Under the pieces are notes generated by a model. The model was not told where the DNA came from, ran no database searches, and was given only the letters and a program-made list of their open reading frames with translations. Source: a virus. Taken from it: DNA of 31,532 nucleotides. Where the stretch lies: positions 1 to 31,532 of IMG/VR virus record IMGVR_UViG_3300045912_000635; one strand, given 5' to 3'. Position numbers and translations under genes: made by a program. Below, in pieces: positions 2,386-30,465 of this stretch (positions within the stretch are counted from its first letter, which is position 1; each line of letters starts with the position of its first letter).

Positions 2386-4428
2386 ATGGCTACTACTAAG
2401 CAGGAACAGTACGAAAGGCTAAGAAAGCTATTTAACAGTGCCATCCGTGGTCCAAACACGGATGCCATGCTATGGGCTTTAGCAAATCCTGCCGTAAATC
2501 TTGTCAATAACGTTGAAGCTATCCACGACAACGTATACATTGCAACTGCTGTAGATCGATACCTAGATCAGAGACTTGCTGACTATAACTTGGTTAGACC
2601 AACTAAAGTTGGACTGAGCGATGACATTTTTCGAAAAATAGGTATCTCGGTAATCAATCGAAAACAGGTTCGCGATCTTTTGATGTCTATTTTAAGAATT
2701 ATGTTTGGCGATGAGCTTACTCAGGCTACCGCAAAAAGTGGCAATGTAGAGCCATATAATCTTGATAACGGAGACCTTCTCAAACTAAAATTTGATGGTG
2801 ACGAAGCTATTCAGATAAAATTTGAATCTTCACAATTTGTCAATATAAACGCCGCAACCGCTCAAGAAGTGGCCGATGCAATTACTAAGTCTTTAAGAGC
2901 GCAAGGCAAGACCGGAAGAGCTTTTGCAAAAGATGATGGCTCAGGTGCGTATGTTGTTATTATCTCTGACACAGAAGGACCTCAATCTTCCGTTGTTGTT
3001 CTTGGCGGACGAGCGCAAAATGAACTACTTTTTGACAAAGTTCGACCAACAACTGGAGGCGCATCTACACAATGGACCGTATCTCTTGTTTCCGGTGGAT
3101 CACTACGGTTTACATGGTCAGCAGGAGCAAATCCTTCTATTGGAAAAGTTAAAGTTGGCGATTATGTAAATATCTTTGCTTCCGGTTTCAGTTCTGTAAA
3201 TAAGGGAACGTTTACGATTACCAAAGTAAAAGGCGGAACTGTAAATAATGCGTATTTCGAGATAGAAAACCCTGTAGGAGTAGCTGAAATTGTCCAACAA
3301 GGAACTGTTGATGGTGTTCTATTTTTTCAGCCTTTTAAAAATAGCCTTACAACAAAATCTAGATACGCAGCTATCTTCCAAGAAGAGGCAAGACTTCTTG
3401 AGGTTTTCATACCGGCAACGACAAAGGTCGTTCGCCGTGACCGAAAAGGAGCCTCCCATATTCATGAGCCAGTTATTACTACGGAAACTTACGACCCAGG
3501 AAAAAACGAAATCACGGATGTAACTGTTCCAAATCCCAGCTCCATCTCAGATGGTAATTATTTTCTTTTAAACTCAGCAAATAACACAAATCTTTACTAT
3601 GTTTATTTTGACAAAACAGGTGGAAACCTTGTAGACCCTGCAATTCCTTCAAGAACTGGCATTAGGGTAGATATCTCGACAGCGACAACCGCTACTGACG
3701 TAGCTGTTAGTGCTGCAAGCGCAATAAATAACATCATCCACTTTAATTGTTCTCCGCCGTCAGGTTCGACTTTTAGGATATGCAACGCAGCAGTAGGTGC
3801 TTGTAATGACGTTGCAAATGGTAACATAACAGGCTTATCTATAAGTGTTTTTCAGCAAGGTACCAATTTAGTCTCAACTACAAGCTCTTCTCCAAATCCC
3901 GATGAACTTTTACCTGATCAAGAAGGTCCTTACATCTATGACCCTTCTCAGCCCTACGTTCTTTCTGATATAGGAACGTCTTCAACCGCTACGATTTCAC
4001 CAGATTCAGGTAGGGTGATTCAAGTTTCTAACTCCGCCAATTTTCCAGATGAGCAAGGTTTTTTAATAATCGCTTACGGAACGGACAAACAAGAGGGCCC
4101 GATTCCTTATCTGGCTAGACCAAGTAATAACACTATTCTTTTAAGCCCTGCGTATCGTATCGTAAACACCCACCCATCTGGAACAGAGGTCAGGCTTGTT
4201 GCCAAAACAGGTCCCGTCTCTATTGATAAATCAGGGAGAGATTTTCCTGCATATCTTACCGACGTTGTTGCCGGAAGAACTTATGCAGAGGATCTTATTA
4301 AAGAGGTGGCAGCTACAGGTATCAATGTTGTTATTACCATCCTTTATCCAGGATCAGAGGGATTAGGTAAATGGTCAGAAATTTCTGACGAAAAAGTAGC
4401 AATTTGGGGAGACGATTCAGATGTCTAG
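2386..4428 (+). CDS. Second baseplate wedge-like structural protein
   Basis: 680 residues, ATG start two bases after the previous stop. The first ~110 residues (helical, with R-L-R-K-L-F-N, W-A-L-A-N-P, N-V-Y-I-A-T-A-V-D-R-Y-L-D and an F-R-K-I-G-I segment) resemble the N-terminal domain of baseplate J-type proteins, in which a T-A-x-x-x-x-L-D turn is typical. It also has one G-D-Y-V...N-K-G-T-F module (about 3157) and one Y-Y-V-Y-F-D module (about 3511-3858), both shared with the preceding protein. A clear J-type C-terminus is not visible; it ends with a distinct G-I-N-V-V-I-T-I-L-Y-P segment. It is probably a baseplate protein that contacts the first one. Its last eight bases overlap the next gene. 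Confidence 0.6.
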   Translation: MATTKQEQYERLRKLFNSAIRGPNTDAMLWALANPAVNLVNNVEAIHDNVYIATAVDRYLDQRLADYNLVRPTKVGLSDDIFRKIGISVINRKQVRDLLMSILRIMFGDELTQATAKSGNVEPYNLDNGDLLKLKFDGDEAIQIKFESSQFVNINAATAQEVADAITKSLRAQGKTGRAFAKDDGSGAYVVIISDTEGPQSSVVVLGGRAQNELLFDKVRPTTGGASTQWTVSLVSGGSLRFTWSAGANPSIGKVKVGDYVNIFASGFSSVNKGTFTITKVKGGTVNNAYFEIENPVGVAEIVQQGTVDGVLFFQPFKNSLTTKSRYAAIFQEEARLLEVFIPATTKVVRRDRKGASHIHEPVITTETYDPGKNEITDVTVPNPSSISDGNYFLLNSANNTNLYYVYFDKTGGNLVDPAIPSRTGIRVDISTATTATDVAVSAASAINNIIHFNCSPPSGSTFRICNAAVGACNDVANGNITGLSISVFQQGTNLVSTTSSSPNPDELLPDQEGPYIYDPSQPYVLSDIGTSSTATISPDSGRVIQVSNSANFPDEQGFLIIAYGTDKQEGPIPYLARPSNNTILLSPAYRIVNTHPSGTEVRLVAKTGPVSIDKSGRDFPAYLTDVVAGRTYAEDLIKEVAATGINVVITILYPGSEGLGKWSEISDEKVAIWGDDSDV

Positions 4429-6146: not shown

Positions 6147-8927
6147 ATGTCAGTTAGGCGTAGACAAAGATGGTTAGGATCTCAAAGAATTGACGTTCCT
6201 CATCTTCGTTCCATTGAATCTGCTGTATCGGCAGATTTTGACGAGTTGCTCAAAGGTTTTGTCACCGGCGAAAACAACGTCTATGTGGTTCGTGGATTTG
6301 AGATAAACATGACAGGGGCTATTGGAGCCGCTGCATCAGGGCTACAGATGCTTGTTGCGTCTAGTACGCTATTCCACGGATCTTCAAGGCAGTCTGGTAC
6401 TTTTTACACAGTTTCTTCTACGGCCACTCCTGAGGTTTTAAACTCAACGATCAATACTAAGGTTCGCGGTGCTTTCACGCCTAATGCTGTAAACTATGTT
6501 GGTATCGAGTATGAGCGTTTTGCAGATACGGCAACTTCAGATACGGTTTATTTTTGGAACCCTACAAATAAAAACGAATTTTCTTCAAACGTACCACTAG
6601 CTAATATATTGCGATATAACATCGTTATCACAACTTCGGTGTGGGCTAATAACGTAGTGCCTATTGCTAAGGTTACGGTTGACGTTGCTGGTAACGTCGT
6701 CGATATCACAGACCAAAGACCTATGCTTTTCCGATTAGGAACAGCAGGTCGTACAAATCCAAATCCGGCATATGTTTACCCATGGACAAACCAAACAGAA
6801 GGTCGATTAGAAAATCCTGTAACGTCGACCTCAAATTCAGTTAATCCTTTTCGTGGTGGTGACAAGCAGATCTACAACTTAAAAGAGTGGATGGATGCTG
6901 TCATGTCTTCTTTCAAGGAAATGAAGGGGACAACTTTTTGGTATTCTCAAAATGTTGGTGGTTCTTTAGTTAAATTAAGACAAGACCTTGGAAATACAGT
7001 AATTACTGGTCGAGGCCAGATCTCCCATAGTAGTACCGTTGCTGGTCGAATTAACTGGGATCAGGCAATACAAATTGCTCTTGTTAGCTCAAGGCTTTCT
7101 TTTCAATTAAACGCAAATCCATCAAGCAGTGACATTACGCTTGCCGACGATCAAGCGGCTTATATAACTTTAAAGCGTGGTGTTAATATTGTGCCCAATC
7201 TCGTGTTTACAAACGGAAGTGCGATTGTAACTTCTGTTGGAGCTGTTTCTTGGACAGGTCCGCTTCAAGCTGGTGACTGGGTTAAATTGGCCACTGACGA
7301 TGATACGAAATATTTAAAAATCCAATCTGTAGACTCACTTTCCCAAGTGACTCTTTCTGTTGTGTACCCTTATACGTCTACCGGCATTTCTGGAGCCAAA
7401 GCTCAGTATGCCCTTGGTGTTTATGAAACAAACCCAACTCCTTCGACAGATCGGCATATCCGCGTTGCGGCCAGAAAAGATGTTCCATTTACTGAAGATA
7501 CCTTCTGGTTTTTGCTAAGATCAGATAACGGTGGATCACTACCTAGGGTTTATGTTCGTTTCCTTGGTTCAGAACTTGAGCAAGGTGAAGATAGAGATAT
7601 TTCTGACAATACATCCAAAGATATCGTAACCTATATTGGTTCTGTTAGTGAAGTAGATAACTCTCCAGAGTATTCTAACAAACTTGGTGCTTTAGTTTCA
7701 GAAGTTACAGATATTACTGTTCCAGCAGCATCTGCTATCACTTCTGGTCAGCACATGCTAATTTATAGTGCTCTTGATTTGAATGAGTATTATATTTGGT
7801 TTAATAGGGACAATTTGGGTGGTAATCCAAATGTTGTTGGAAAAATACCTATTGAAGTTGCAATCACTACTGGTGATACTGCTAACCAAGTTGCCTCTGC
7901 CTTACAAACCGCAATAAACGGTGTGATTGATTTTAACGCAACTGTTTCTGGTGCTACGGTTACGGTTACAAACGTAGATGCAGGTACCACAACAAACGCT
8001 TCTAACGTTAACGTAAACGGCGCCACCGTCACTGTTACAACACAGGGTACCGGTGCTTCTAATAACTATATCAGTGATGGTGACAACCTCACTTTGGCAA
8101 TTAAAAAACTCGACAAAAAACTTAAAGAACTTGCTGGTAATGAGATAACCATATACGAGGAAGTCCTAACCGTCGTATCGGGCTCTCCTGCTAACGATAA
8201 TGAAGTTACGGGCCCTATTACCTCAGGTACCAACCTTACTTTGCCTTATGACTCTCACTTTTTTAACGCGGTTAATGGATACATAGTCGGTAAAGCTGAC
8301 CTTGAAGTTTACTTAAATGGTCAACGACTTCGTTTGGGTGCTGATTATACAGAAGTTGGTGCCAATAATACCGAATCTGTAACTATTCAAATTCAACAAA
8401 ACCTTGTAGTTGGTGATGAGCTTCTTTTCCGTATCGATCCAGGTAAGGCAGCAGCGGCTGGCGGTGGCGGTTCGGGTGAGGCTAATACGGGTGCAAACAT
8501 TGGAACAGGAGCTGCCGTATTTAAGAACAAGACTGGTGTAACTCTCAATTTTAGAAGAATTCAACAGGGTTCTGGCGTTACAATCACGGAAAATGCCAAT
8601 GACATAACCATCTCTGCTGCTCCTTCTGCTCCTATTTATGATGTTGTAACCGTAAACGGTACAAACTATACAGCGACCGCTTCAAATGACTATATACTAG
8701 TCAACAACTCAGGTGGCAACAGAACTGTAACACTTCCAACTGCTATTGGAAATAGCGGTAAACATATTACAGTCAAAAAACTTGATACTGGTAACACTTT
8801 GTTTGTAGCAACTGTGTTAAACCAAACAGTTGATGGTGTCGACCGCACATCCACTCCTTACTCGATTACAACTCAGTACGAGACAATATCGATTATAAGC
8901 GATGGGGCAAATTGGTGGATTGTTTAA
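6147..8927 (+). CDS. Large tail fibre / baseplate appendage protein
   Basis: 926 residues. The N-terminal ~270 residues have features of a virion-attachment domain: an R-R-R-Q-R-W start, then V-G-I-E-Y-E-R-F and V-D-I-T-D-Q-R-P. The middle (about 7705-8050) holds the Y-Y-I-W-F-N module shared with both baseplate proteins. Next comes a V-V-S-G-S-P...E-V-T-G-P-I module (about 8160-8440) that also exists as a stand-alone gene at 11367. A short GGGGSGE linker follows. The C-terminal ~95 residues carry the appendage-tip pattern N-R-T-V-T-L-P...K-K-L-D...S-D-G-A-N-W-W-I-V seen in many phage fibres. It should link baseplate to fibres and may contact the host. The overall role is well supported; the exact position in the tail is not. 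Confidence 0.7.
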   Translation: MSVRRRQRWLGSQRIDVPHLRSIESAVSADFDELLKGFVTGENNVYVVRGFEINMTGAIGAAASGLQMLVASSTLFHGSSRQSGTFYTVSSTATPEVLNSTINTKVRGAFTPNAVNYVGIEYERFADTATSDTVYFWNPTNKNEFSSNVPLANILRYNIVITTSVWANNVVPIAKVTVDVAGNVVDITDQRPMLFRLGTAGRTNPNPAYVYPWTNQTEGRLENPVTSTSNSVNPFRGGDKQIYNLKEWMDAVMSSFKEMKGTTFWYSQNVGGSLVKLRQDLGNTVITGRGQISHSSTVAGRINWDQAIQIALVSSRLSFQLNANPSSSDITLADDQAAYITLKRGVNIVPNLVFTNGSAIVTSVGAVSWTGPLQAGDWVKLATDDDTKYLKIQSVDSLSQVTLSVVYPYTSTGISGAKAQYALGVYETNPTPSTDRHIRVAARKDVPFTEDTFWFLLRSDNGGSLPRVYVRFLGSELEQGEDRDISDNTSKDIVTYIGSVSEVDNSPEYSNKLGALVSEVTDITVPAASAITSGQHMLIYSALDLNEYYIWFNRDNLGGNPNVVGKIPIEVAITTGDTANQVASALQTAINGVIDFNATVSGATVTVTNVDAGTTTNASNVNVNGATVTVTTQGTGASNNYISDGDNLTLAIKKLDKKLKELAGNEITIYEEVLTVVSGSPANDNEVTGPITSGTNLTLPYDSHFFNAVNGYIVGKADLEVYLNGQRLRLGADYTEVGANNTESVTIQIQQNLVVGDELLFRIDPGKAAAAGGGGSGEANTGANIGTGAAVFKNKTGVTLNFRRIQQGSGVTITENANDITISAAPSAPIYDVVTVNGTNYTATASNDYILVNNSGGNRTVTLPTAIGNSGKHITVKKLDTGNTLFVATVLNQTVDGVDRTSTPYSITTQYETISIISDGANWWIV

Positions 8928-9653: not shown

Positions 9654-11354
9654 ATGGCAGATATTTCAAAGCTTTCGCGTTTAGTTTCTGGTGTTCACAG
9701 AGATGTAGACCTTACGGCCAATACGCTTGTTTTGGAAAACCTCAAACTAAATCTTGGCGGTGCAAACAACGTAACTTTTGCGGGAACTTTAACGGCAAAC
9801 CGCACGATTACAGTACCCGACTCAAACATCAACCTGGGGCATATCTCAAATCTCCAAAACCTTTCTGGTGTAGCCCCTGCTTCCGACAATCTTGGAGTTT
9901 TTACAGGAAGCACTATCCCTGCAAACTCAACAATTAAGCAAGCTCTCCAATCATTGGAAACTGCGGTTGAAAACGTTAGTATTACCCCAGACTTTCAAGA
10001 TAACGTTTTTAGAATCTCTGACGATGTCGATAACACAAAAAAGATAGCGTTCCAAGCTTCTGGTATCGCTACAGGTACCACTAGAACGATCACGATGCCC
10101 GATGCCAACGTAAACCTTGGCGAGGTTAACACCGCTATCCTCCAAAACGGTTCGCGAGCTTTTACAGCCGACCAGTCAATGGGCGGTTTTAAGCTTACAA
10201 ACCTTGCTGCTCCTACTGTTGGTTCCGACGCTGCAACCAAGACCTATGTCGATAACGCTATTGAGGGGGTAAAACCTAAGGAAGCTGTTCGGGCTGCCAC
10301 CACTGCAAACATCACACTATCAGGTACTCAAACCATCGATGGTGTAAACTTGGTTGTCGGTGACAGAGTCCTTGTTAAGGATCAAACCTCTGCTGCTGAT
10401 AACGGTATTTATGTAGTGGCCGCAGGTGCTTGGTCAAGAGCTGAAGATTTTGACCAACTTACACCCGTAAACGAGATCAAAGGGGCTTATGTTGCGGTTT
10501 CTCAAGGAACTACAAATGCAGGCAAGGTGTTTGTTTGTAACTCTGACCCAGCTACTTTAGGTACAGATCCTATCACCTTTGTATTCTTTAACTCCATCAC
10601 AACCCTCAACGGTGGTGATGGTATATCGATCGTAGGCACTACAATCGAAGTTGATCATGACGGTCAAGGTCTTCAATTTGTTTCTGGCCAGCTTTCTCTT
10701 GAACTTGACGGTTCCACTCTTTCTAAGTCTGCCGCAGGTCTTAAGGTTGCAGACGCAGGGATCACAGCTACCCAGTTGGCTACAGATTCTGTTATTACTG
10801 CCAAAATCCAAGATGGTGCTGTTACAGAAGCTAAACTAGCCGCTTCTGTCGCTGGTGCCGGTTTAACTGGCGGTGCTGGTTCTCCTCTTGCTGTTGGTGC
10901 TAACGCTGATGGTTCTATCCAGGTTAACGCAAACGACATCGCAGTTAACAGTGCTCCTCTTGCTCGCCGAACGATGGTTGCAGGTGAGGCGTTCGCTGCT
11001 ACCACGACCTGGCTTGTAAGGCTTGCAAGGACTGGTGAAACTGCTGGTAGAATTTACAAAGCAGACAAAGACGCTTCATCAAATGACAATTTTTATGTAA
11101 TTGGTGTCGCTTTTTCTTCTACTACGGTTGCTGCTGGTGATAATATGACAGTGATTATGCTTGGCGAACACTCATTACAAGTTTCTGATGCCAACTTTGC
11201 CGCAGCAGACATTGGTAAGCCTGTCTTCTTGACTTCATCAGGAGCTTTCTCAGTGACTGCCCCGACTGCTAACGATGATGCTGTTGTTAGGATCGGTATA
11301 GTTCAGGATACAAATAAATTGTGGGTTCAGCCTGAGGTTGTTGGGGTATTGTAA
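9654..11354 (+). CDS. Tail fibre protein with well-known fibre motifs
   Basis: 566 residues. Early repeats read L-T-A-N-R-T-I-T-V-P-D-S-N-I and T-T-R-T-I-T-M-P-D-A-N-V, common in fibre shafts. Then comes K-L-T-N-L-A-A-P-T...S-D-A-A-T-K-T-Y-V-D, a hallmark joint of phage tail fibres. A compact domain follows with I-D-G-V-N-L-V-V-G-D-R-V-L-V-K-D-Q-T and N-G-I-Y-V-V, found in many tail proteins. After an alanine-rich stretch (about 10720-10930), the C-terminal ~120 residues form the tip module shared with the 149-residue protein at 8951. It has a clear AGGAG element. It is likely a trimeric fibre, with the tip contacting receptor or another fibre segment. Confidence 0.75.
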   Translation: MADISKLSRLVSGVHRDVDLTANTLVLENLKLNLGGANNVTFAGTLTANRTITVPDSNINLGHISNLQNLSGVAPASDNLGVFTGSTIPANSTIKQALQSLETAVENVSITPDFQDNVFRISDDVDNTKKIAFQASGIATGTTRTITMPDANVNLGEVNTAILQNGSRAFTADQSMGGFKLTNLAAPTVGSDAATKTYVDNAIEGVKPKEAVRAATTANITLSGTQTIDGVNLVVGDRVLVKDQTSAADNGIYVVAAGAWSRAEDFDQLTPVNEIKGAYVAVSQGTTNAGKVFVCNSDPATLGTDPITFVFFNSITTLNGGDGISIVGTTIEVDHDGQGLQFVSGQLSLELDGSTLSKSAAGLKVADAGITATQLATDSVITAKIQDGAVTEAKLAASVAGAGLTGGAGSPLAVGANADGSIQVNANDIAVNSAPLARRTMVAGEAFAATTTWLVRLARTGETAGRIYKADKDASSNDNFYVIGVAFSSTTVAAGDNMTVIMLGEHSLQVSDANFAAADIGKPVFLTSSGAFSVTAPTANDDAVVRIGIVQDTNKLWVQPEVVGVL

Positions 11355-11705: not shown

Positions 11706-13607
11706 ATGTCTACCAAAACTGATCTCAGACAAACGAAATTTGTTGGACCGATTAGCCAACTATCCACTACTCAAGTTACCGAAGGCGATAACATCGTACA
11801 GTCCATCAATGATGAGCTGACGCCTTTACTTCGTTTGTCCGCAACAACCCCAACATCGTTAGTAGTAAACGTGGGTGGTGGAGACCTTTTAAATGCAGAG
11901 TCTAACCGTCGCAGAGCCATTCCCCATATAGGCACAGCCTATATCCAGTTCACCTCTGGTACTGTAACCTTTCCTGCTTCTTCTGGCGGAAACATTACAT
12001 GCTCTCCAGGTGGTACTACAGTACTTAACGTAGCTAGCGGTAATTTTGCGGCTGTTCTTGTTTATCTTGATGGAGCTGGAAATCTAAACACTGTAGTAGG
12101 AGCTGACGCTGCTACAGAATCCGCAGCCATCACCAATCTTCCACCTGCCCCCAAAAAGACTTTGGCCGCAGGCTTTGTAGTTGTGCAAAATATCGGTGGA
12201 ACTATCCAGAATATAGCACAAAATAGAATTCGCCAATTTGGCGCAGGTAGCGGAGGAGGAAGTGGTTCAGGAGACGCCTCTGGGCTTTTAGAAGATTTAA
12301 AAAATCAGTTTGTAGATTCTTATTATAACTTCTTATCTGCTGAGGATTTCGGAAACACAACCGAACTTGTTGATTCAGGAAATACTACTGCTACGTACAA
12401 CTTACTGTCTAGCTCTTACCATATGTCGTCAGGACAAAAGGTTACAACAGTAAACTTGCTAGATAGTGGGTTTTTTGATTTTCAGAGAGATATCGACCAA
12501 GCTATGGTCACATTAAGATATGTGGATGGTTACGTAGATACGAACCCAACCGTAAAGCTTACAAGAGATAGCGGTGTTACATGGCAAACCGTCACGGTAT
12601 CTAGGAACGGACAAACGGATGAGCTTAGTGGGATTTTAAACTTTGCAAACGAAACTCTTACACAGACTGCCACCTACACCGTAACAGGAAACAGAACCTT
12701 AAACACCAACACACAGAAAAAACTTGCTCAAATTTTAACCATTCCAGCAAATACTTTAAAGTTAGTAAAAGAGTTTACTTTTGATGTAACCAAAACAGGC
12801 TCCCCCAATGGTAAACTGATAGTTAAGCTTGTAAAAGAGGCATCTGGAAACCCTTCTTTGCTAGATACTAACCTTGTCAGCACCGTAGAAAAAGATATGT
12901 CAACCATATCTACAGGTGCTGTAACTGTGGACTTTGGAAATCAGGTTTTAAAACCAGGAAACTACTACTTACTTTTCGAGACTGATGAGGCTTACGAAAA
13001 CTCGTTCGTATCAGGCACCACTCAGTTACAGATCAGAACAAACACAATAACTCCTGACGCCAAAGCCTACAACGGAACCACTTGGTCCGCAATTGCTGGT
13101 GAATCAATTCAATATAGATATACCTTTAAAGATATAAACCTCAAACTGGAGGTAACAGCAAGTGCCGCCAGCAGATTAGTTGGGTTTGGAGTTTTTTATC
13201 AAAAACTAAACGAGCTGGTCTCACCTGTATCCTATGATCAGATCATAGTCGGTAGCTCAGCTCAGGTAGGCGCAGGGCTCGCAACTCACTCTTCCTTGCA
13301 AGGCGCTATCAATGATGCAGGTTTTGCAAAACGCATCAAATTTTTAGCTGAGACGGTATCACAGAACGTAACGATGGCTCAAAGCCGAGTGGTGATCGAG
13401 GGAGATGGGGCCAACTCCGTTTTGTCAGGAAACCTAACCATATCTGGAAACTACAACGTGATAGAAAAGATAAGAGTTGTAGGCAATTTGACGATCAGCG
13501 GAAAAGGTAACGTGATAAAAGATGTGATCGTGGTTGATGGTATAATTGATAATACTGGTCTTGATAATGATCTAAACATTTTATGGGTGACTGCCGATGA
13601 GATATAG
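11706..13607 (+). CDS. Fibre protein with C-terminal beta-helix-like end
   Basis: 633 residues, AGAGG before ATG. The N-terminal ~190 residues look like an attachment domain with a proline/valine-rich beta pattern and end in a glycine-serine linker (G-S-G-G-G-S-G-S-G). The middle has jelly-roll-like strands such as T-L-K-L-V-K-E-F-T-F-D-V and P-G-N-Y-Y-L-L-F-E-T-D, which resemble carbohydrate-binding or bacterial surface beta domains. The last ~80 residues step in short repeats (G-N-L-T-I-S-G-N-Y-N-V-I, G-N-L-T-I-S-G-K-G-N-V-I, V-D-G-I-I-D-N), typical of right-handed beta-helices in fibres and tailspikes. No catalytic motif is seen. It overlaps the first seven-repeat gene by 11 bases. Confidence 0.65.
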   Translation: MSTKTDLRQTKFVGPISQLSTTQVTEGDNIVQSINDELTPLLRLSATTPTSLVVNVGGGDLLNAESNRRRAIPHIGTAYIQFTSGTVTFPASSGGNITCSPGGTTVLNVASGNFAAVLVYLDGAGNLNTVVGADAATESAAITNLPPAPKKTLAAGFVVVQNIGGTIQNIAQNRIRQFGAGSGGGSGSGDASGLLEDLKNQFVDSYYNFLSAEDFGNTTELVDSGNTTATYNLLSSSYHMSSGQKVTTVNLLDSGFFDFQRDIDQAMVTLRYVDGYVDTNPTVKLTRDSGVTWQTVTVSRNGQTDELSGILNFANETLTQTATYTVTGNRTLNTNTQKKLAQILTIPANTLKLVKEFTFDVTKTGSPNGKLIVKLVKEASGNPSLLDTNLVSTVEKDMSTISTGAVTVDFGNQVLKPGNYYLLFETDEAYENSFVSGTTQLQIRTNTITPDAKAYNGTTWSAIAGESIQYRYTFKDINLKLEVTASAASRLVGFGVFYQKLNELVSPVSYDQIIVGSSAQVGAGLATHSSLQGAINDAGFAKRIKFLAETVSQNVTMAQSRVVIEGDGANSVLSGNLTISGNYNVIEKIRVVGNLTISGKGNVIKDVIVVDGIIDNTGLDNDLNILWVTADEI

Positions 13608-14688
13608 AATTGTAAATAACAAAGTTAAAAGAAAACCAGGAAATCAATCCAATATAAAGCTTACTAATTTAACTGTAGCAGAAAAAATTAGACAATCTAA
13701 GATTGAAGTTGAACCTTTTTCTGATGTCCAAACAACCACAGCTTTAACTGGTGGTAGCGATGCTTTTTCTGGCGGCGTCCTTCTTCTAGATGGCAGAGTA
13801 TTCTGTATTGCTCGTAGCGCTTCAAACGCTAAGATCTACGACCCTGTAACTAATACCCAAACAACTACAGCTTTAACTTCTGGTGGTAGCGATGCTTTTT
13901 ATGGCGGTGTTCTTCTGCCAGACGGAAGAGTATTTTGTGTTCCTTTAAGCGCTTCAAACGCTAAGATTTACGACCCTGTAACAAACACCCAATCTACCAC
14001 AGCTTTAACTAGTGGTGGTGGCTTTGCTTTTATCGGCAGCGTTCTCCTCCCAGATGGAAGAGTATTCTGTGTTCCCCACAACGCTTCAAACGGTAAAATA
14101 TACGATCCAGTAACCAACACCCAAACAACCACAGCTTTAACTAGTGGTGGTAGCTCTGCTTTTTTTGGCGGAGTCCTCCTCCCAGATGGAAGAGTATTCT
14201 GTGTTCCTCTTAACGCCTCAAACGGTAAAATCTACGACCCTGTAACTAATACTCAAACCACCACAGCTTTAACTTCTGGTGGTAGCCTTGCTTTTGTCGG
14301 CGGTGTCCTTCTTCCAGACGGTAGGGTATTCTGTGTTCCCCACAACGCCTCAAACGGCAAGATCTACGATCCTGTAACCGATACTCAATCTACCACAGCT
14401 TTAACTGGTGGTAGCGGTGCTTTTGAAGGTGGAGCTCTCCTTCCAGACGGTAGAGTATTCTGTGTTCCTCATAACGCCTCAAACGGTAAAATCTACGACC
14501 CTGTAACAAACACACAAACCACCATAGCTTTAACTGGTGGTAGTGCCGCTTTTATCGGCGCTATTCTTCTTCCAGATGGAAGAATATTCTGTGTTCCATT
14601 TAGCGCCTCAAACGCTAAGATATACGAAGCATCAAAACGAGATCTTCCCATGGAATACGTTTTATCCCCATTTTTTAATAAATTTTAA
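13597..14688 (+). CDS. Seven-repeat Kelch-like propeller protein A (candidate receptor binder)
   Basis: 363 residues. A basic ~45-residue N-terminus leads into seven tandem repeats of 42-44 residues (about 47-345). Each reads roughly T-T-A-L-T-x-G-G-x-x-A-F-x-G-G-V-L-L-P-D-G-R-V, then F-C-V-P-x-x-A-S-N-x-K-I-Y-D-P. The D-G-R-V and Y-D-P-x-T-N-T turns match Kelch/galactose-oxidase-type beta-propeller blades, but the usual G-G after the D-G-R-V strand is replaced by V-P. Seven blades would close one complete propeller. Variation is focused around A-F-x and V-P-x-x. The C-terminus ends L-S-P-F-F-N-K-F. It is in the fibre operon, so a host-binding role is likely but inferred. No enzyme motif is visible. 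Confidence 0.75.
   Translation: MRYRIVNNKVKRKPGNQSNIKLTNLTVAEKIRQSKIEVEPFSDVQTTTALTGGSDAFSGGVLLLDGRVFCIARSASNAKIYDPVTNTQTTTALTSGGSDAFYGGVLLPDGRVFCVPLSASNAKIYDPVTNTQSTTALTSGGGFAFIGSVLLPDGRVFCVPHNASNGKIYDPVTNTQTTTALTSGGSSAFFGGVLLPDGRVFCVPLNASNGKIYDPVTNTQTTTALTSGGSLAFVGGVLLPDGRVFCVPHNASNGKIYDPVTDTQSTTALTGGSGAFEGGALLPDGRVFCVPHNASNGKIYDPVTNTQTTIALTGGSAAFIGAILLPDGRIFCVPFSASNAKIYEASKRDLPMEYVLSPFFNKF
13735..14631 (+). repeat. Seven tandem ~128-bp coding repeats in propeller A
   Basis: Seven head-to-tail units of 126-132 bases encode the Kelch-like blades. Framework codons differ mainly by synonymous changes (GACGGTAGG, GATGGAAGA and GACGGCAGA for D-G-R), while a few positions differ in amino acid. 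Long stretches are shared with the arrays at 16173 and 17718. Confidence 0.9.
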
Positions 14689-14702
14689 AAGGAGAGTTAT
14701 CT

Positions 14703-14930
14703 ATGAGAAAACTTATTAAAGGAAACAAGACATTAGAGATTCTAGAAAACGATGTACTTATCGCTAGGATCTACCTAAGCGGAGAAAAGCCTGAAGAAGA
14801 TGCTGCTATCCTTGCTACCGAAGAAGCAAGAGCTGACGAGGTTATTACCGTAAACTCAGACATCGTTCAGCACCCAGAACAGCCTGGAATAGATTACACA
14901 AAAAGTATCTTGCTTCCAGAAGAAGATTAA
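14703..14930 (+). CDS. Small acidic protein of unknown function
   Basis: 75 residues, strong AGGAG before ATG, not recognised. It starts basic (M-R-K-L-I-K-G-N-K) and becomes acidic, ending L-L-P-E-E-D. There is a short strand pair followed by an alanine/glutamate helix. It lies directly after propeller gene A and before the glycosyltransferase. An assembly chaperone or assisting factor is possible, but nothing in the sequence proves it. An overlapping frame at 14537-14719 is a shadow. Confidence 0.6.
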   Translation: MRKLIKGNKTLEILENDVLIARIYLSGEKPEEDAAILATEEARADEVITVNSDIVQHPEQPGIDYTKSILLPEED

Positions 14931-14947
14931 TGTATTATCAAATTTAA

Positions 14948-14976
14948 GGATATCTTATTCGTATATTGAGATATCC
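14948..14976 (+). promoter_or_regulatory. Perfect 8-bp inverted repeat before the glycosyltransferase
   Basis: GGATATCT (14948-14955) and AGATATCC (14969-14976) form a perfect 8-bp stem around a 13-base AT-rich loop, ending 13 bases before ATG 14990. No T-run follows, so it is not a normal terminator. An operator, an RNA processing site or translation control are all possible. Confidence 0.35.
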
Positions 14977-14989
14977 CAAAGGGTATTAG

Positions 14990-15991
14990 ATGGCCAAGGG
15001 TTTTATATATAACAGACCTATCACTTTTGATGCTTGCGAGTTCTCACTTTACAGAGCACAACAAAGCAAGCACAAAAAGAGCTTCCTTATATCCGTAGGA
15101 GGAGGGCTTGGCGATCGTGCCTGCACAGAACCAGCTATCAGGTGGTTTGTAAAAAAGTTCCCCGAATACAGCTACGTCGTCGTTTCTCAAAACCCTGAGC
15201 TATTCTCCCACTTGCCCGTAAAAAACCTTTCCCCTCAAGACGATTACGACTTCGATGACCATAACGTCCTTGTTTCTATGTGGCATGGAAATGCTCCTAG
15301 CCATTCCTTCTATAACGTGCTTAACCTGCATCCTGTTGATTACGCTTCATTAAATATGTTTCAAAGCACACTGCCTACACCTGAAGATAAGGTGATAGAA
15401 ACTCCTTTCGACATAAAAAACCATAGTAATTTAGAATACTTATTAGAAAAACCATTTATAGCTTTTCATCCAGGAATCTCTTGGAAGTCAAAAACCTTAC
15501 CTTTTTCTTTCTGGGAAGAGGTGCTAAAAAGCCTGTCAAAACATAAAGATAAGTACGATATTGTCCTTATAGGGAATACCCAAGAGGATAAGAAAGGGGT
15601 TTATAGCGATCTGGCCTCTAGGTATGATGTTATAAACCTGATAAATAAAACCTCGATTTCCGAGCTAGGGGCAATCTTAAAAGAGGCTAGGGCTGTCATA
15701 ACAAACGACTCTTCTCCTATCCATCTAGCTTCGGCTAGGGGAGGAAAAGCTAAGATAGCCTACGTTAGCATAATTAAAAGTGAGCCTTATCTAAACCATT
15801 ATAGGGTTAACGATAAGGGTGACGTTGAGTTTGGTTGGAGGATGAAGAACTTTGTAAAACGCGATTATGGTGATGATTTTGCAAATCCCATAAAACGTAT
15901 AGTTTATAGACCCCAAGACTTCTTAACCGTAGAAGAGATCAAGGGGTGTTTGCCTGAGCCTGAGGAATTGGTGGCTTGGGCGATCGATTAG
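14990..15991 (+). CDS. GT9-like (heptosyltransferase-family) glycosyltransferase
   Basis: 333 residues with a GT-B layout. Near the N-terminus is V-G-G-G-L-G-D-R-A (36-44) followed by P-A-I-R-W-F-V-K-K-F-P, the acceptor-side loop and helix of GT9 enzymes. The second half has F-H-P-G-I-S-W-K-S-K-T-L-P (160-172), I-V-L-I-G-N (192-197), I-S-E-L-G-A-I-L, and T-N-D-S-S-P-I-H-L-A-S-A (239-250), the donor-binding signature of ADP-heptose:LPS heptosyltransferases. It should transfer a nucleotide-linked sugar. The acceptor could be host surface polysaccharide or a phage protein. It lies between propeller genes A and B in the same direction. The ribosome site is weak (AAAGGG). Confidence 0.75.
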   Translation: MAKGFIYNRPITFDACEFSLYRAQQSKHKKSFLISVGGGLGDRACTEPAIRWFVKKFPEYSYVVVSQNPELFSHLPVKNLSPQDDYDFDDHNVLVSMWHGNAPSHSFYNVLNLHPVDYASLNMFQSTLPTPEDKVIETPFDIKNHSNLEYLLEKPFIAFHPGISWKSKTLPFSFWEEVLKSLSKHKDKYDIVLIGNTQEDKKGVYSDLASRYDVINLINKTSISELGAILKEARAVITNDSSPIHLASARGGKAKIAYVSIIKSEPYLNHYRVNDKGDVEFGWRMKNFVKRDYGDDFANPIKRIVYRPQDFLTVEEIKGCLPEPEELVAWAID

Positions 15992-16028
15992 AAGATGTGA
16001 TATAAGTTAGAGAAAAGGAAAATAGCAC

Positions 16029-17150
16029 ATGATAAAGCTTAAGAACGGATTTGTAGAAGGGCTACCAAAAACAACTCAAGGGTTGATTGATAGTTCTTTC
16101 TTAGACATAGTCAGAGCTATAACCAAAAGAAACAAAGATGGCCAGTATGCCCCTTACCATACAAGCGAGTTTGCTACGGCTTTAACCTCTGGTGGTAGCA
16201 ATGCTTTTTACGGCGGTGTCCTTCTTCCAGACGGTAGGGTATTTTGCGTTCCTAATAGTGCATCAAACGGTAAGATCTACGATCCTGTAACTAATACACA
16301 AACTACAACAGCTCTAACTTCTGGTGTTGCTAATGCTTTCCACACCGGAGTCCTCCTTCCAGATGGTAGGGTATTCTGTGTTCCTTATAGCGCCTCAAAC
16401 GGGAAAATCTACGATCCTGTAACTAATACCCAAACCACCACAGCTTTAACTTCTGGTGGTAGCGCTGCTTTTGTTGGTGGCGTTCTCCTTTCAGACGGTA
16501 GGGTGTTCTGTGTTCCTCTTAACGCCTCAAACGCTAAAATCTACGATCCTACAAACGATACACAAACAACTGTAAATTTAACTTCTGGTGTTAGCGATGC
16601 TTTTGTCGGAGGAGTCCTCTTATCAGACGGTAGAGTATTCTGTGTTCCATTTAACGCTTCAAACGCTAAGATCTATAATCCTGTAACTAATACCCAAACC
16701 ACCACAGCTCTAACTTCTGGTGTTAGTGGTGCTTTTGTCGGCGGCGTTCTCCTCCCAGACGGTAGGGTATTCTGTGTTCCTTATAACGCCTCAAACGGTA
16801 AGATCTACGATCCTGTAACAAACACACAAACCACCACAGCTTTAACTGCTGGAAGCGCCGCTTTTGAAGGTGGATTGCTTCTTTCAGACGGAAGAGTGTT
16901 CTGCGTGCCTGCCAACGCCTCAAACGGTAAAATCTACGATCCTGTAACCAATACCCAAACAACTACAGCTTTAACTTCTGGTGTTGCCGCTGCTTTTGCC
17001 GGTGGTGTTCTCTTACCAGACGGTAGGGTATTCTGTGTTACTCGTAATGCCTCAAACGGTAAGATCCTTAGCGGTCCTTGGATTTCCAGCGTAAACAGAT
17101 GGCAGCTTCCTCCTTTACTAGCTATGTCAGCTTTTTACAACAAATATTAA
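16029..17150 (+). CDS. Seven-repeat Kelch-like propeller protein B
   Basis: 373 residues with AAGGA about 11 bases before ATG. A 48-residue N-terminus, different from A, ends H-T-S-E-F and is followed by seven Kelch-like repeats (about 49-347) with the same framework as A. Variable residues after A-F are Y, H, V, V, V, E and A; after V-P they are N-S, Y-S, L-N, F-N, Y-N and A-N (T-R-N in the last blade). Repeat 2 has H-T-G in place of x-G-G. The C-terminus N-R-W-Q-L-P...S-A-F-Y-N-K-Y closely resembles that of protein C. It is probably a propeller-shaped binding head made by duplication of A or C and mounted through its own N-terminus. Confidence 0.75.
   Translation: MIKLKNGFVEGLPKTTQGLIDSSFLDIVRAITKRNKDGQYAPYHTSEFATALTSGGSNAFYGGVLLPDGRVFCVPNSASNGKIYDPVTNTQTTTALTSGVANAFHTGVLLPDGRVFCVPYSASNGKIYDPVTNTQTTTALTSGGSAAFVGGVLLSDGRVFCVPLNASNAKIYDPTNDTQTTVNLTSGVSDAFVGGVLLSDGRVFCVPFNASNAKIYNPVTNTQTTTALTSGVSGAFVGGVLLPDGRVFCVPYNASNGKIYDPVTNTQTTTALTAGSAAFEGGLLLSDGRVFCVPANASNGKIYDPVTNTQTTTALTSGVAAAFAGGVLLPDGRVFCVTRNASNGKILSGPWISSVNRWQLPPLLAMSAFYNKY
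16173..17069 (+). repeat. Seven tandem coding repeats in propeller B
   Basis: Seven units of 126-132 bases, in frame, homologous to those at 13735 and 17718. Stretches such as the codons for A-S-N-G-K-I-Y-D-P-V-T-N-T are nearly identical at the DNA level across all three genes, which would allow recombination or gene conversion. Confidence 0.9.
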
Positions 17151-17162
17151 TAGGGTGTTATC

Positions 17163-18689
17163 ATGTCAACAATAGGAAAAAATTTATCATTCGTAAAAAG
17201 AAAGCTAGCTCAAGAGCGTACACCAAATGTCATTTCTCGAACCGTCGTGTACATGCATCAGGCTACCGGCTTCTCAACGCTCATAGATCTTAACTCCCTA
17301 AACCTACCCTCAGAAGCCGCTGCTAACGGGTTTGCTAACCCAGGTCTTGACAATATTCCTTTTCTTGTTTTGTTTCGACAAAACGTAAAAATCGAATCAT
17401 CTTATAAGGGGGAGTTGGTAGATTATCAAGACTACATAATTACAAACAATACACAGATAAATCTACTTTCGCCTAACACTACTGAGCCTGGCGAAATCTT
17501 CGTTATTACTTTAAATCTTCCTAACAACGTAGATGTTAAAAGTTTGCTAGATAACCTAAATACCCCATTGTTCTCTTTAAATCAGGCTCTTTATGGGGTT
17601 AATTCATTATTAAAATTTAGTGCTTCTAATCTAGGTACTCAGGTTTTAAGCATACTTGATTATGTTGCGGATAAGAATAAGGATGAGCAGCAAAACTCTA
17701 ATCAGACAAGCGAGTTTGTTACGGCTCTAACTTCTGGCGTTAGCTTTGCTTTTGCCGGCGGCGTTCTCCTCCCAGATGGTAGGGTATTTTGTGTTCCTTA
17801 TGGCGCATCAAACGGTAAAATCTACGATCCTGTAACTAATACCCAAACCACCACAGCTTTAACTTCTGGTGTTAGCTTTGCTTTTTTTGGCGGTGTTCTC
17901 CTCCCAGACGGCAGAGTATTCTGCGTTCCCCATGTTGCCTCAAACGGTAAGATCTACGATCCTGTAACTAATACCCAATCTACCACGGCTTTAACTGGTG
18001 GTAGCGCTGCTTTTTTAGGCGGCGTCCTCCTTCCAGATGGTAGGGTATTCTGTGTTCCTTATAGCGCATCAAACGGAAAAATATACGATCCTGTAACCAA
18101 TACTCAAACCACCACAGCTTTAACTGGTGGTGTTAGCGATGCTTTTGTCGGCGGCGTACTTCTTCCAGACGGAAGAGTGTTCTGTGTTCCTCTTAACGCC
18201 TCAAACGGTAAAATCTACGATCCTGTAACTAATACTCAAACCACCACAGCTTTGACTGGTGGAAGCCTTTCTTTTGTCGGCGGTACCCTCCTTCCAGATG
18301 GAAGAATATTCTGTGTTCCTGCCAACGCCTCAAACGCTAAGATCTACGATCCTGCAAACGACACTCAATTTACCACAGCTTTAACTGGTAGTGGTAGCGA
18401 TGCTTTTTTAGGCAGTATCCTCATTCCCGACGGCAGAGTATTCTGTGTTCCTCGTAATGCCTCAAACGGGAAAATCTACGACCCCGTAACTAACACACAA
18501 TCTACCACGGCTTTAACTGGTGGTAGTAATGCTTTTTCTGGCGGTGTTCTTCTCCCAGACGGCAGAGTGTTTTGTGTTCCTCGTGACGCCTCAAACGGTA
18601 AAATATTGAATGGAAGTTTTAGTAAGGAAACAAATCGGTTTCAATTCCCTATTAATTTGCTTCTTTCGTCCTTTTTAAACAAGTTTTAA
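17163..18689 (+). CDS. Seven-repeat Kelch-like propeller protein C with long N-terminal domain
   Basis: 508 residues, starting 12 bases after B. The first ~185 residues form a separate domain: a basic start, S-R-T-V-V-Y-M-H-Q-A-T-G-F-S, a beta-rich section with P-G-E-I-F-V-I-T-L-N-L-P, then a leucine-rich helical part (V-L-S-I-L-D-Y-V-A-D). This is probably the virion anchor or oligomerisation part that A and B lack. After T-S-E-F come seven Kelch-like repeats (about 186-482). Repeat 5 reads L-S-F in place of x-A-F. The end N-R-F-Q-F-P...S-S-F-L-N-K-F matches B. It is last in the plus-strand arm, directly before a strong terminator. Confidence 0.75.
   Translation: MSTIGKNLSFVKRKLAQERTPNVISRTVVYMHQATGFSTLIDLNSLNLPSEAAANGFANPGLDNIPFLVLFRQNVKIESSYKGELVDYQDYIITNNTQINLLSPNTTEPGEIFVITLNLPNNVDVKSLLDNLNTPLFSLNQALYGVNSLLKFSASNLGTQVLSILDYVADKNKDEQQNSNQTSEFVTALTSGVSFAFAGGVLLPDGRVFCVPYGASNGKIYDPVTNTQTTTALTSGVSFAFFGGVLLPDGRVFCVPHVASNGKIYDPVTNTQSTTALTGGSAAFLGGVLLPDGRVFCVPYSASNGKIYDPVTNTQTTTALTGGVSDAFVGGVLLPDGRVFCVPLNASNGKIYDPVTNTQTTTALTGGSLSFVGGTLLPDGRIFCVPANASNAKIYDPANDTQFTTALTGSGSDAFLGSILIPDGRVFCVPRNASNGKIYDPVTNTQSTTALTGGSNAFSGGVLLPDGRVFCVPRDASNGKILNGSFSKETNRFQFPINLLLSSFLNKF
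17718..18608 (+). repeat. Seven tandem coding repeats in propeller C
   Basis: Seven in-frame units of 126-132 bases, the third array of the same family, bringing the total to 21 blades in three genes. Unit lengths vary by one or two codons at the G-G/S-G turn only. Confidence 0.9.
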
Positions 18690-19783: not shown

Positions 19784-20431
19784 CTACCAGCCCATGGCCT
19801 CAGCCGTAGCCGGATATTCTTTCTTAAATATCTCTTTTGCTGCCAAAGCTATGTCCATATGCTCTTTTTGGGTGCCATTGCCGCTCCGAAGTTCGATATA
19901 ATGGAGCCAGGAGCGTGCGTTCCCTGTCATGTAAAGCTTGGTTTCGGTTGATAATGGAAGCAGAAATCTTGCCTGCTCCTTGGCAATGCCACGTTTTAAC
20001 GCCTCTTCGTAGAGCCTGCTTGATTGAAGCATAACCTGGGTCTGCGCATCTGTGAACCAGTTTTTGTCCTCTTCACTCATATTGTCAATAGAGTTCTGAC
20101 GGTTCTTTTGGTCTTGGCTTCGTGCGTCGTAGTAGATGAAGTTTGTAGCCTGGGCATAGCGTTGCGAAAATTCTTGAAAAACAAATGATCGGTGCCTTAA
20201 GATCTGGGCGGCAATAGCTCGCGATGTCACGATCTCAAGCGTCATGTGAACGTGCTCAAAAGGCGACCAGTGCTTGTTTTTGGCTAGATACTTAAGAAGT
20301 TTAGGGGCTGTCTCCGTGTTCATCTGATTCGATGGATTTGAGACACGTGCAACGTATGACACAATATCCTCAGACATTAATCCGTCAAGTTCGTTTACGC
20401 CCTTAGTAATCGCTACAAGCTTTACGCTCAT
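19784..20431 (-). CDS. thyX: Flavin-dependent thymidylate synthase ThyX
   Basis: 215 residues, usual ThyX size. The diagnostic R-H-R-x7-S motif is present as R79-H80-R81...S89 (R-H-R-S-F-V-F-Q-E-F-S-Q-R). Also typical are W-S-P-F-E-H near residues 55-60 and N-A-R-S-W-L-H-Y-I-E-L-R near 171-182. ThyX makes dTMP from dUMP using methylene-tetrahydrofolate, FAD and NADPH, so it feeds phage DNA synthesis without dihydrofolate reductase. AGAGGAATAAG precedes the ATG. It overlaps the stop of the upstream small gene by four bases. Confidence 0.95.
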   Translation of the reverse strand: MSVKLVAITKGVNELDGLMSEDIVSYVARVSNPSNQMNTETAPKLLKYLAKNKHWSPFEHVHMTLEIVTSRAIAAQILRHRSFVFQEFSQRYAQATNFIYYDARSQDQKNRQNSIDNMSEEDKNWFTDAQTQVMLQSSRLYEEALKRGIAKEQARFLLPLSTETKLYMTGNARSWLHYIELRSGNGTQKEHMDIALAAKEIFKKEYPATAEAMGW

Positions 20432-21056: not shown

Positions 21057-22079
21057 TTAGCTCCTATCCGCTTTAAGGATACGCTGGACCATCTCCTGCG
21101 TCATCTCGTTAGTGTTTGCCAAGTTGATACGTACAGACTGATAATCTGCGCCACATTCACTGCCAGGAGTGAATTCAATCTTGGCTCTCTTAAATAACTC
21201 TTCCATCTTATCATCGGTTCTGAAAAAAGCAAACATCCCGAAGTTAGAAATCTCGTCCTGACCAAAAATGTGTTTAAGTTTGAGCACCTCTTCCCTGTTC
21301 ATGTCAATAAGGTTTCTGGATTGTAAAAAATACGTAATAAGCCTGTTTTCGTCAGACAAAATCTCTTTTGCTACGTACTGGCTCGGGTAGCTAACACCAC
21401 ACACAGAATTCTTGCTATATAGTTCGATACGTCTATGGATTTCGTCTATATCGGTTGCTGTCCAGCCAAGCCTAATGCCGTTAATACCGGTAAGCTTTGA
21501 CAGGCTTCCGCAAAAGATTTTATGTCCAGGTACGTTACTGACACCGAACGGGATTCCATATGTAGGAGTGTGATAGGCGGCATCCCAGATAATTTTGTCG
21601 GTGTTTAACTCCTGACCGATGCCGATCTGGCCCATAGGGTTTGAAGGGCTGTCAACAATAGCTAAGCAGCTCTTAGTATGGGGCATGCCCCATGTTCGAT
21701 GGACGTAGGGAGTGAGCGCGATCATTGTAGGGTATCTAGGGTAGTAAAGATTTCGCGTGCTAACGCTAACAGTACGAGCATCTGACAGTGCGTAGATGGA
21801 TGCGTTCACAGCATGGGTACACCCTGCGGTAACGGAAATGTTTTTGTAGGTGTGGCCAGTGAGATCTGCAGTGAGCTTTCTTAGCATTTCCACAAGCTCT
21901 GCATCACCAGTATACGGAGGATAGCCGTATCTTTCTAGCGGCATTGTCTGTAAATTGCTTAGGTTTTTGTAGATCGATAGGATCTTTTTCCTTAAGCCCC
22001 TGGTGTCGCCCCAACCAAAATCCAAAACTTCCAAAGTTTCACCTTCCTGTTCGTCTCTAAATTCTTTTATTTTTCCCAT
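21057..22079 (-). CDS. PLP-dependent aminotransferase, class I/II fold
   Basis: 340 residues, slightly short for the fold. Family hallmarks appear in order: T-A-G-C-T-H-A-V-N (84-92, cofactor-phosphate loop), S-P-S-N-P-M-G (144-150, equivalent of N-P-x-N-P-T-G), W-D-A-A-Y-H (165-170, aspartate for the pyridine nitrogen), and G-S-L-S-K195-L-T-G with G-I-R203-L-G-W after it (Schiff-base lysine and substrate arginine region). It should transfer amino groups or carry out a related PLP reaction; the substrate is unknown. There is no Shine-Dalgarno element. The ATG follows the CYTH stop by one base, so translation is coupled. Unusual cargo for a phage. Confidence 0.85.
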   Translation of the reverse strand: MGKIKEFRDEQEGETLEVLDFGWGDTRGLRKKILSIYKNLSNLQTMPLERYGYPPYTGDAELVEMLRKLTADLTGHTYKNISVTAGCTHAVNASIYALSDARTVSVSTRNLYYPRYPTMIALTPYVHRTWGMPHTKSCLAIVDSPSNPMGQIGIGQELNTDKIIWDAAYHTPTYGIPFGVSNVPGHKIFCGSLSKLTGINGIRLGWTATDIDEIHRRIELYSKNSVCGVSYPSQYVAKEILSDENRLITYFLQSRNLIDMNREEVLKLKHIFGQDEISNFGMFAFFRTDDKMEELFKRAKIEFTPGSECGADYQSVRINLANTNEMTQEMVQRILKADRS

Positions 22080-22080
22080 A

Positions 22081-22650
22081 TTAATCTTTACGGTATATTT
22101 CCCAAAGGCTTCTTCTCATTCGTTTTTGGGCATTTAGCCCTAAGGAAGCCAACAACTTTTCGTATTTTACAATAATTTCTCTAGCCTGCTCTTCTGAAAT
22201 ATCAAGATTCTCATTTACCTCAATCTCTATAAAATTTGCAGATTTTTTATTTTCATCCAAAACGGTATAAAAAACCACATCAGCATCCTCAAAGAAATAT
22301 ATATCGCAAATCTTATAAACAGAAAAGTTTTTCTTATAGCCTAGGCCTTCACAAAAAGCCTGAATAGTATTGAGGTCATTAGAATCAACCCTTAAATTAA
22401 CCTCTGTTCTAACGACGTTGTTTCCGTTGGTTGTTTTCTTTTTAAACGTAAGCTCAGACCTTTTAGTTTTATCGGTCTCAGGAGGCATTCGGTATCGGAT
22501 AAACTCGTCATCTTTAGAATAGTAGATATCGGTAGACTCTACATATAAAAAGGATTTGGGAGACATAGATCTTAACAAGTTTTTAAACTTAATACGATCT
22601 ATATCTGAGGCATCATACTTTGTTTCTATTTCTAGAAATTTTTTAGACAT
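22081..22650 (-). CDS. CYTH-domain protein (adenylate cyclase class IV / triphosphatase superfamily)
   Basis: 189 residues. The defining E-x-E-x-K motif is at the N-terminus (E7-I-E9-T-K11). Further alternating charged strands follow: F-I-R-Y-R-M, S-E-L-T-F-K-K-K, V-V-R-T-E-V-N-L-R-V, and a late F-I-E-I-E-V with the metal-binding glutamates. This is the tunnel fold of class IV adenylate cyclases, thiamine triphosphatases and inorganic triphosphatases. It acts on a triphosphate substrate; which one cannot be told. A GAGGG element precedes the ATG, and the start overlaps the metallopeptidase end by eight bases. The aminotransferase follows after one base. Confidence 0.8.
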   Translation of the reverse strand: MSKKFLEIETKYDASDIDRIKFKNLLRSMSPKSFLYVESTDIYYSKDDEFIRYRMPPETDKTKRSELTFKKKTTNGNNVVRTEVNLRVDSNDLNTIQAFCEGLGYKKNFSVYKICDIYFFEDADVVFYTVLDENKKSANFIEIEVNENLDISEEQAREIIVKYEKLLASLGLNAQKRMRRSLWEIYRKD

Positions 22651-29715: not shown

Positions 29716-30465
29716 TTACTTAAGTTTTTTCTTAATCTTTTTTAAAGTTTCAAGTACAGATTTTTCATTGACTTCGTCGATTTTCATCTCGGCGCTGACA
29801 GATGATTGGCCTGCAGATACAACAATACTCTTGTTGCCAAGAATTTTCAAGCCTGAAAGTAATGATTGTAAATTTTTCTCATCACGAACTTTTACAAGGA
29901 TAGGGTGAACCTTAGCCTCAAGCTCATTTTCATAGGCAAATCGGACAGCATGATCAATAATAAAAAGACTCGCCATCTCTTCTCCGACTTGATCGATCAC
30001 AACTCGTTTAATAAGCTTCACCGCTTCTTCTCTTGTAGAGGTACGACCATCGTACTTTTGATTAAAAACTATCTGCTTATACGATTGAACGCCAAGTTCT
30101 GTTGCAGCATCTTCTAGATATCGAGAAGCAACTTCGATAAGATATGCGTTCTGCTCTCCGCGAGCAAGTAGGCGGTCGTCGATTTTAGAAACAAGCTGAC
30201 GGTAGAAAGCATCCGACTCTAAACTTTGAAGACCTGCAATTTCTAAGGATGTTTTTTCAAATTCATCAATCCCATCACCGACCACGGCAATCACGAAAAC
30301 TTTCGATCTAACCTGTTTTCGATACTCAAAAAACAAATCTTGCAGTCTAAGAGCAGCGTTTTGTTTTCGGCTTTTTCTAGCGTTAATGGTTTGAGGTGTC
30401 GCATCTTCAAGCGTATCTGCAACATATTTTCTCTGTCTTTTAATTTCTTCAATTAGATCTTCCAT
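29716..30465 (-). CDS. Protein of unknown function upstream of SSB
   Basis: 249 residues, GGGAG before ATG, not recognised. It begins with a charged helix (I-E-E-I-K-R-Q-R-K), then a strand K-V-F-V-I-A-V-V-G-D-G that looks like the first strand of an alpha/beta fold but lacks a Walker motif. The middle is helical. A final strand I-L-G-N-K-S-I-V-V-S-A-G precedes a lysine-rich tail. It overlaps the subtilase gene by 17 bases. A replication-related or virion role cannot be decided. Confidence 0.6.
   Translation of the reverse strand: MEDLIEEIKRQRKYVADTLEDATPQTINARKSRKQNAALRLQDLFFEYRKQVRSKVFVIAVVGDGIDEFEKTSLEIAGLQSLESDAFYRQLVSKIDDRLLARGEQNAYLIEVASRYLEDAATELGVQSYKQIVFNQKYDGRTSTREEAVKLIKRVVIDQVGEEMASLFIIDHAVRFAYENELEAKVHPILVKVRDEKNLQSLLSGLKILGNKSIVVSAGQSSVSAEMKIDEVNEKSVLETLKKIKKKLK

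Follow-up and report, generated by a model that had tools for sequence, protein, structure and literature searches.

What purpose would be served by three kelch-like repeat genes lying close together in a phage tail locus is the question raised by the stretch of viral DNA analyzed here (positions 1 to 31,532 of IMG/VR record IMGVR_UViG_3300045912_000635; all 31,532 nucleotides are referred to below as the window). The genes are gene 1 (13597..14688, 363 amino acids (aa)), gene 2 (16029..17150, 373 aa, with a short helical stalk at the N-terminus) and gene 3 (17163..18689, 508 aa), all on the + strand and downstream of genes with hits to families of baseplate, tail sheath and tail fibre proteins. 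We put at roughly 0.8 the probability that their products are paralogous tail-tip adhesins, each composed of a variable N-terminal anchor, a closed kelch-like propeller and a hypervariable outer face for host binding. Comparison of sequences suggests that all three may be carried on the particle and bind receptors.

The repeat architecture is unambiguous. A sequence-only reading of this DNA had claimed three genes with seven repeats each, and this is borne out: the open reading frames (ORFs) are present, and anchoring on DGR[VI]FC yields exactly seven units in each of genes 1, 2 and 3, spaced 43-44 aa apart (kelch-like, as claimed, with a slightly narrower length range than the 42-44 residues given there). 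Tandem Repeats Finder independently recovers three arrays with a period of 132 and 6.5-6.9 copies (scores 936-995; in gene 1, 6.9 copies at 13728..14627, + strand), so the repeats are not due to chance. The array is circularly permuted, with closing strands VQTTTALT in gene 1, SEFATALT in gene 2 and SEFVTALT in gene 3, and because this N-terminal strand is the fourth strand of blade 7 each array amounts to 7.0 blades. For gene 1 the assignment (13726..13749, + strand) is by analogy with the model of gene 2 described below, the segment matching the fourth strand of the repeat exactly. The chain preceding the closing strand measures ~43 aa in gene 1, ~45 aa in gene 2 and ~182 aa in gene 3; the N-termini thus differ as had been claimed, at lengths a little below the 45, 48 and 185 residues quoted. 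The longest exact DNA repeats within each gene are just 32-36 bp, making it unlikely that the seven-blade count in the window genes is an assembly artefact. Pfam matches of the single proteins (ETM, DUF4651, Rap1a, FimH and others) were rejected as chance, since they sum weak repeats and no stretch passes alone.

Each protein is predicted to fold as one seven-bladed propeller and not as an open solenoid, in line with the fold proposed from the letters. The AlphaFold2 monomer model of gene 2, built on a 48-sequence alignment, has a mean predicted local distance difference test (pLDDT) score of 88.5 and a predicted template-modelling score of 0.84, and shows a closed ring of seven four-stranded blades. 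Residues 46-348 (16164..17072, + strand; pLDDT mostly >90) form the propeller domain, in which a strand at 46-53 is followed by seven β1-β2-β3 sets and six β4 strands. As only six β4 strands follow it, strand 46-53 is the missing β4 of blade 7, so that in the predicted structures the N-terminal strand seals the ring. The same propeller domain is predicted for gene 3 (residues 183-483, 17709..18611, + strand), whose 182-residue N-terminus (17163..17708, + strand) is modelled unreliably. The top Foldseek matches are seven-bladed and include streptogramin/virginiamycin B lyase (template-modelling (TM) score by target 0.82-0.88), galactose oxidase and G-beta. In VIA, residues 43-357 of gene 2 align with virginiamycin/streptogramin B lyase (2z2o) with a Z of 32 and a root-mean-square deviation of 2.5 Å over 297 residues, matches to seven-bladed propellers lying at 2.3-2.5 Å over ~295 residues. 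By sequence, the family profile matches galactose oxidase (E=2e-13) and a kelch-domain copper oxidase (E=5e-13) significantly. Pfam Kelch_1 (cut-off 20.1) is not reached, gene 1 scoring 18.3 bits and genes 2 and 3 not being listed, and the kelch double glycine after the second strand is replaced by Val-Pro in nearly all 21 window blades; for these reasons we call the family kelch-like only.

Seven blades are also the rule among relatives, consistent with the expectation that blade number would be constant rather than freely varying. A profile scan of IMG/VR gave 77 loci and a DNA pattern search 97 stretches, many of them overlapping, while a second scan with divergent members gave 215 matching stretches, of which 78 loci were kept. 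Together they place relatives in well over 100 phage loci and in two sequence subfamilies, subfamily 1 (that of the window) with the motif LLPDGRVFCVP and subfamily 2, to which Cylindrospermopsis phages CrV and Cr-LKS4 belong, with LAPNGKIYGIP. Counted on complete, non-identical, unclustered ORFs, with close relatives counted separately, 55 of 67 subfamily-1 proteins have seven blades, as do 41 of 47 in subfamily 2, where the count is a span estimate. Very divergent members, on contigs binned as Afipia and Planctomycetaceae metagenome-assembled genomes, again have seven blades and a similar C-terminal tail. This tail, with the motif LSxYxNK[FLY], is found in nearly all members of both subfamilies; in the window it ends in SAFYNKY in gene 2 (17073..17147, + strand) and in LLLSSFLNKF in gene 3 (18612..18686, + strand). 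The homologue searches relied on conserved-core patterns and so understate the diversity of the family, and they make the core appear more conserved than it really is. The family has no name in Pfam or PHROGs, and no paper describing it, its conserved tail or its variable positions was found in the open-access literature, so that this family of phage host-binding proteins is apparently undescribed so far. A 700-aa ORF in one locus (L230) contains 14 blades, apparently two successive seven-bladed propellers in one chain.

The tail-tip assignment draws on the N-terminal partners of the propeller in relatives. The propeller is C-terminal to tail fibre (T7-type) and tail spike N-termini in locus L073, and is fused behind tail protein phrog_6616 in L064, behind a minor tail protein in L047 (phrog_14, and PF05939 below its cut-off) and behind tail fibre repeats in L070 and L085. 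Tandem propeller genes, two to three in number, recur in other phages; in IMGVR_UViG_3300036768_000354 three consecutive ones follow a homologue of window 11706-13607 (51% identity), the third (L149) sharing the N-terminal anchor of gene 3 (52% identity over 172 aa). Among the three window propeller genes themselves, none showed a recognisable anchor of a known family. In two subfamily-2 loci (L005, L195) BspA-like leucine-rich stretches, read by eye, lie upstream of the propeller (SLTSFPLIDTSSG in L195).

The same fusions bear on the possibility that the propellers bind something other than a primary receptor, serving as tail decoration or whiskers, attaching to particles or eukaryotic surfaces, or acting as intracellular effectors like the poxvirus kelch proteins. 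A precedent of sorts is Pectobacterium phage vB_PcaM_CBB, which has tail whiskers and encodes three kelch proteins, of which one is a virion component (PMC5259590). In BFVD, moreover, the top viral hit by structure is a Hokovirus collagen-repeat protein (A0A1V0SG21; 29% identity, TM 0.80 by query), which outranks the phage matches among viral predicted structures, including a 1138-residue entry that, going by protein length, is presumably CrV gp012. The propeller module is thus possibly shared between tailed phages and giant viruses, and may also tip the collagen-like proteins of giant protist viruses; collagen-like stalks were not found among the phage loci examined. However, a tail-tip location is favoured by the fusions to minor tail protein and fibre N-termini and by a locus that follows fibre genes, and an intracellular effector would have no need of tail modules, so we consider such roles unlikely.

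A host-facing role is further suggested by the distribution of variation. Numbering each blade from the D of DGR as 0, positions -10, -7, +8 and partly +9 hold nearly all of the between-blade amino-acid variety in the core, change in the remaining frame being mostly synonymous. These positions are hypervariable in subfamily 2 as well, and in either subfamily they rank with the most variable. By strand order, β1 begins and β2 ends at variable positions, which would place the β4-β1 and β2-β3 loops on one face. The N-terminal stalk would join the propeller where a β4 begins and the C-terminal tail would leave it after a β3, both on the opposite face, together with the conserved β1-β2 (LPDGR) and β3-β4 (DPVTNT) loops. 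With the chain ends opposite the variable loops, the variable face would point away from the virion. The host-recognition role that the sequence-only reading had proposed is therefore backed by the tail fibre and tail-tip fusions of relatives and by fast variation apparently confined to one face.

This pattern is the reverse of that expected of an active site, a point that bears on whether the propellers could instead be enzymes, depolymerases or lyases cutting host surface glycans in the manner of endosialidase propellers or streptogramin lyase. The nearest solved folds do include lyases and galactose oxidase, and endosialidases are among the phage propeller tailspikes (PMC4901313). However, conservation is lowest on the presumed ligand face, while the conserved residues (GGVLLPDGRVFCVP, IYDP) recur sevenfold and look structural. 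The family consensus is nearly identical in all seven blades, none of which is specialised or has unique conserved polar residues, and the Cys of FCVP is not retained in subfamily 2. Catalysis is disfavoured because no blade is specialised in the consensus, and we judge it more doubtful still than binding to something other than the primary receptor.

Rates of substitution indicate how the variable positions are likely to have arisen. When blades within a gene are compared by Nei-Gojobori counting, the frame shows a ratio of nonsynonymous (dN) to synonymous (dS) change of 0.065 for the window genes and 0.13 for the family, whereas dN at positions -10, -7 and +8 reaches 1.7 times the frame dS in the window. 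As these positions were selected on the window genes, the other gene sets count as replications: dN there is 1.92 times the frame dS (95% bootstrap 1.64-2.34) in 64 subfamily-1 genes excluding those of the window, and 2.36 times (1.94-2.88) in 42 subfamily-2 genes. In closer homologues, amino-acid changes fall mostly at the variable positions, though ~75-115 of 189 codons differ synonymously. The variable positions at least lack constraint, and they are probably under diversifying selection. The variable codons show about as much synonymous change as the frame, so that selection fits better than targeted mutation, and it is very improbable that a diversity-generating retroelement writes these positions: they are fixed sites in likely phage adhesins, and at +8 and +9 the last codon letter is C or T in 91-95% of cases against a 59% background, but blades differ synonymously all along the frame (at 0.35 of degenerate codon pairs) instead of variation being restricted to template adenines, the variable codons include non-AAY forms (GAA, TTA), and no reverse transcriptase was found in the window, though this is only a genome fragment.

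The blades of the three genes behave as one pool. Mean DNA identity between blades within each gene is 75-78%, and the tandem blades are recognisably amplified from one blade, as in highly repetitive propellers. Identity within a gene equals that between genes (0.784 each), and no positional orthology of blades among the three genes was detected (permutation p = 0.24). The equal identities are compatible with exchange of blades between paralogues, or with equal divergence after a single amplification. Codon scrambling against blade recombination was ruled out, because blades share more codons than a random draw would (degenerate codon pairs differing 0.35 vs 0.61). It is conceivable, though we hold it at rather less than an even chance, that a fixed seven-bladed scaffold carries interchangeable blade cassettes pooled among paralogues and phages, and that recombination and diversifying selection, with no mutator, generate host specificities as in repeat-based immune receptors.

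In the adhesin mechanism we favour, the variable N-terminal anchor would join each propeller to a tail fibre or the baseplate, and the virion would present a disc with a variable patch repeated seven times on its outer face. Some three to five residues per blade would be under diversifying selection that tunes binding to receptors on the host surface (probably glycans or surface proteins), while ring closure would hold frame and blade number fixed; the three paralogues could give the phage three specificities or greater avidity. Several points weigh against this picture. The fold comes from a monomer model calculated on a repeat-rich alignment, and such alignments can favour symmetric rings; the faces were assigned from the strand order of that model and not from coordinates. 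Some arrays have 2-6 or 8 blades, and short-read collapse may account for some of these, yet exact-repeat lengths fail to separate seven-blade from other arrays, and collapse would erase its own evidence. Finally, dN/dS between tandem blades is approximate owing to partly saturated sites.

The surrounding genes are all on the + strand and closely packed across the locus. The three propeller genes had been described as one operon; strand and tight spacing agree, but two genes intervene between genes 1 and 2, a 75-aa ORF (14703..14930) and a GT9-family (heptosyltransferase-like) glycosyltransferase (14990..15991; PF01075 E=3.8e-17). Small acidic ORFs (~70-75 aa) occupy the same spot in related phages (L008 ~8051, L018 ~10950, L040 ~9649), where they show the pattern LEILxxN...DWxxSL, and are possibly fibre assembly helpers. 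The glycosyltransferase, absent at this spot in L008, the closest relative with a propeller trio, might modify host surface glycans and so block superinfection. Upstream, the 633-aa gene (11706..13607, + strand) whose homologue precedes the trio in IMGVR_UViG_3300036768_000354 overlaps gene 1, and is itself preceded by a 566-aa tail fibre or virion structural protein (9654..11354, + strand; matching PHROGs families for tail fiber and virion structural proteins with E as low as 5.6e-39). Neighbouring tail proteins at 287-2383, 2386-4428 and 6147-8927 have a common module of type YYVWYDVNGGGGDPALVGKTGIQVAINSSDTATQVATATA, recognised by eye, which in 287-2383 and 6147-8927 gives a weak match to PHROGs tail sheath. 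Adjoining the adhesin locus, 19784-20431 and 21057-22650 (-) contain a ThyX-like ORF (by eye), a class I/II aminotransferase (PF00155/PF04864) and a CYTH-domain protein (PF01928). At 30449-31213 (-) lies a subtilisin-like (S8) protease with an apparent signal peptide and VIDTG, HG and GTSQA motifs (by eye), a gene not usually expected in the replication region of a phage. Regulatory, tRNA and Rfam scans gave no useful result.

A constant frame, a near-constant blade number, a shared tail and a map of probably host-facing residues would make host choice by uncultured phages directly testable. The variable positions could be read as a candidate specificity code, and the small size of the propellers suits them to expression and glycan-array screening.

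The sequence-only reading had also held that propeller heads are not a common phage tip fold. This is partly right: what is known of phage propeller receptor-binding domains comes mostly from isolated structures whose ligand is single or unproven, but there are precedents, and the family described here occurs widely in metagenomic phages. Gp131C of phiKZ (PDB 4GBF), on the periphery of a myovirus baseplate, is a propeller of seven blades that has been proposed, but not proven, to be a receptor-binding or degrading domain (PMC4901313). Compared by description only, it shares the blade number, while near-repetitive blades and hypervariable positions go unmentioned in that account; 4GBF is not among the PDB sequence matches listed for the family profile, which, with no direct comparison made, is not evidence against kinship. 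The phi11 adsorption protein Gp45, for which N-acetylglucosamine on teichoic acid is the key receptor part, resembles the window proteins in being closed by an N-terminal strand, its propeller standing on a trimeric helical stem (PMC4901313), but it has five blades followed by a C-terminal tower. The three kelch-type propeller proteins of phage CBB (CBB_550, 552, 554) are encoded in one region (PMC5259590) and show weak structural similarity to the window family (TM by query 0.44, 14-15% identity). CrV gp012 and Cr-LKS4 g13 belong to the same family, with seven repeats, matching variable positions, a C-terminal LNK[IF] and adjoining virion structural genes; they differ in belonging to subfamily 2 (with LAPNGRIYGIP), in an N-terminal region of ~800 residues and in being annotated as hypothetical. 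Myxococcus phage Mx1 (OR576727), the nearest isolate found for the tail genes, has a related tail gene order, in which a protein annotated as kelch repeat adjoins baseplate protein J. The kelch domain of Mx1 is of the classical type (GG motif) and is inserted within the homologue of window 2386-4428 (L007:11604-14552) rather than encoded by separate genes. Window 2386-4428 is without any such insert, and the related tails of Mx1 and the window apparently acquired propellers independently. Highly repetitive β-propellers amplified from single blades, with near-identical repeats, have been surveyed mostly in cellular proteins (PMC9218822, PMC6805158); by comparison, the window family keeps seven blades across a phage family with one face diversified. 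Phage propeller receptor-binding proteins and kelch trios were thus known already, and what is new here is the pattern of variation on a constant frame.

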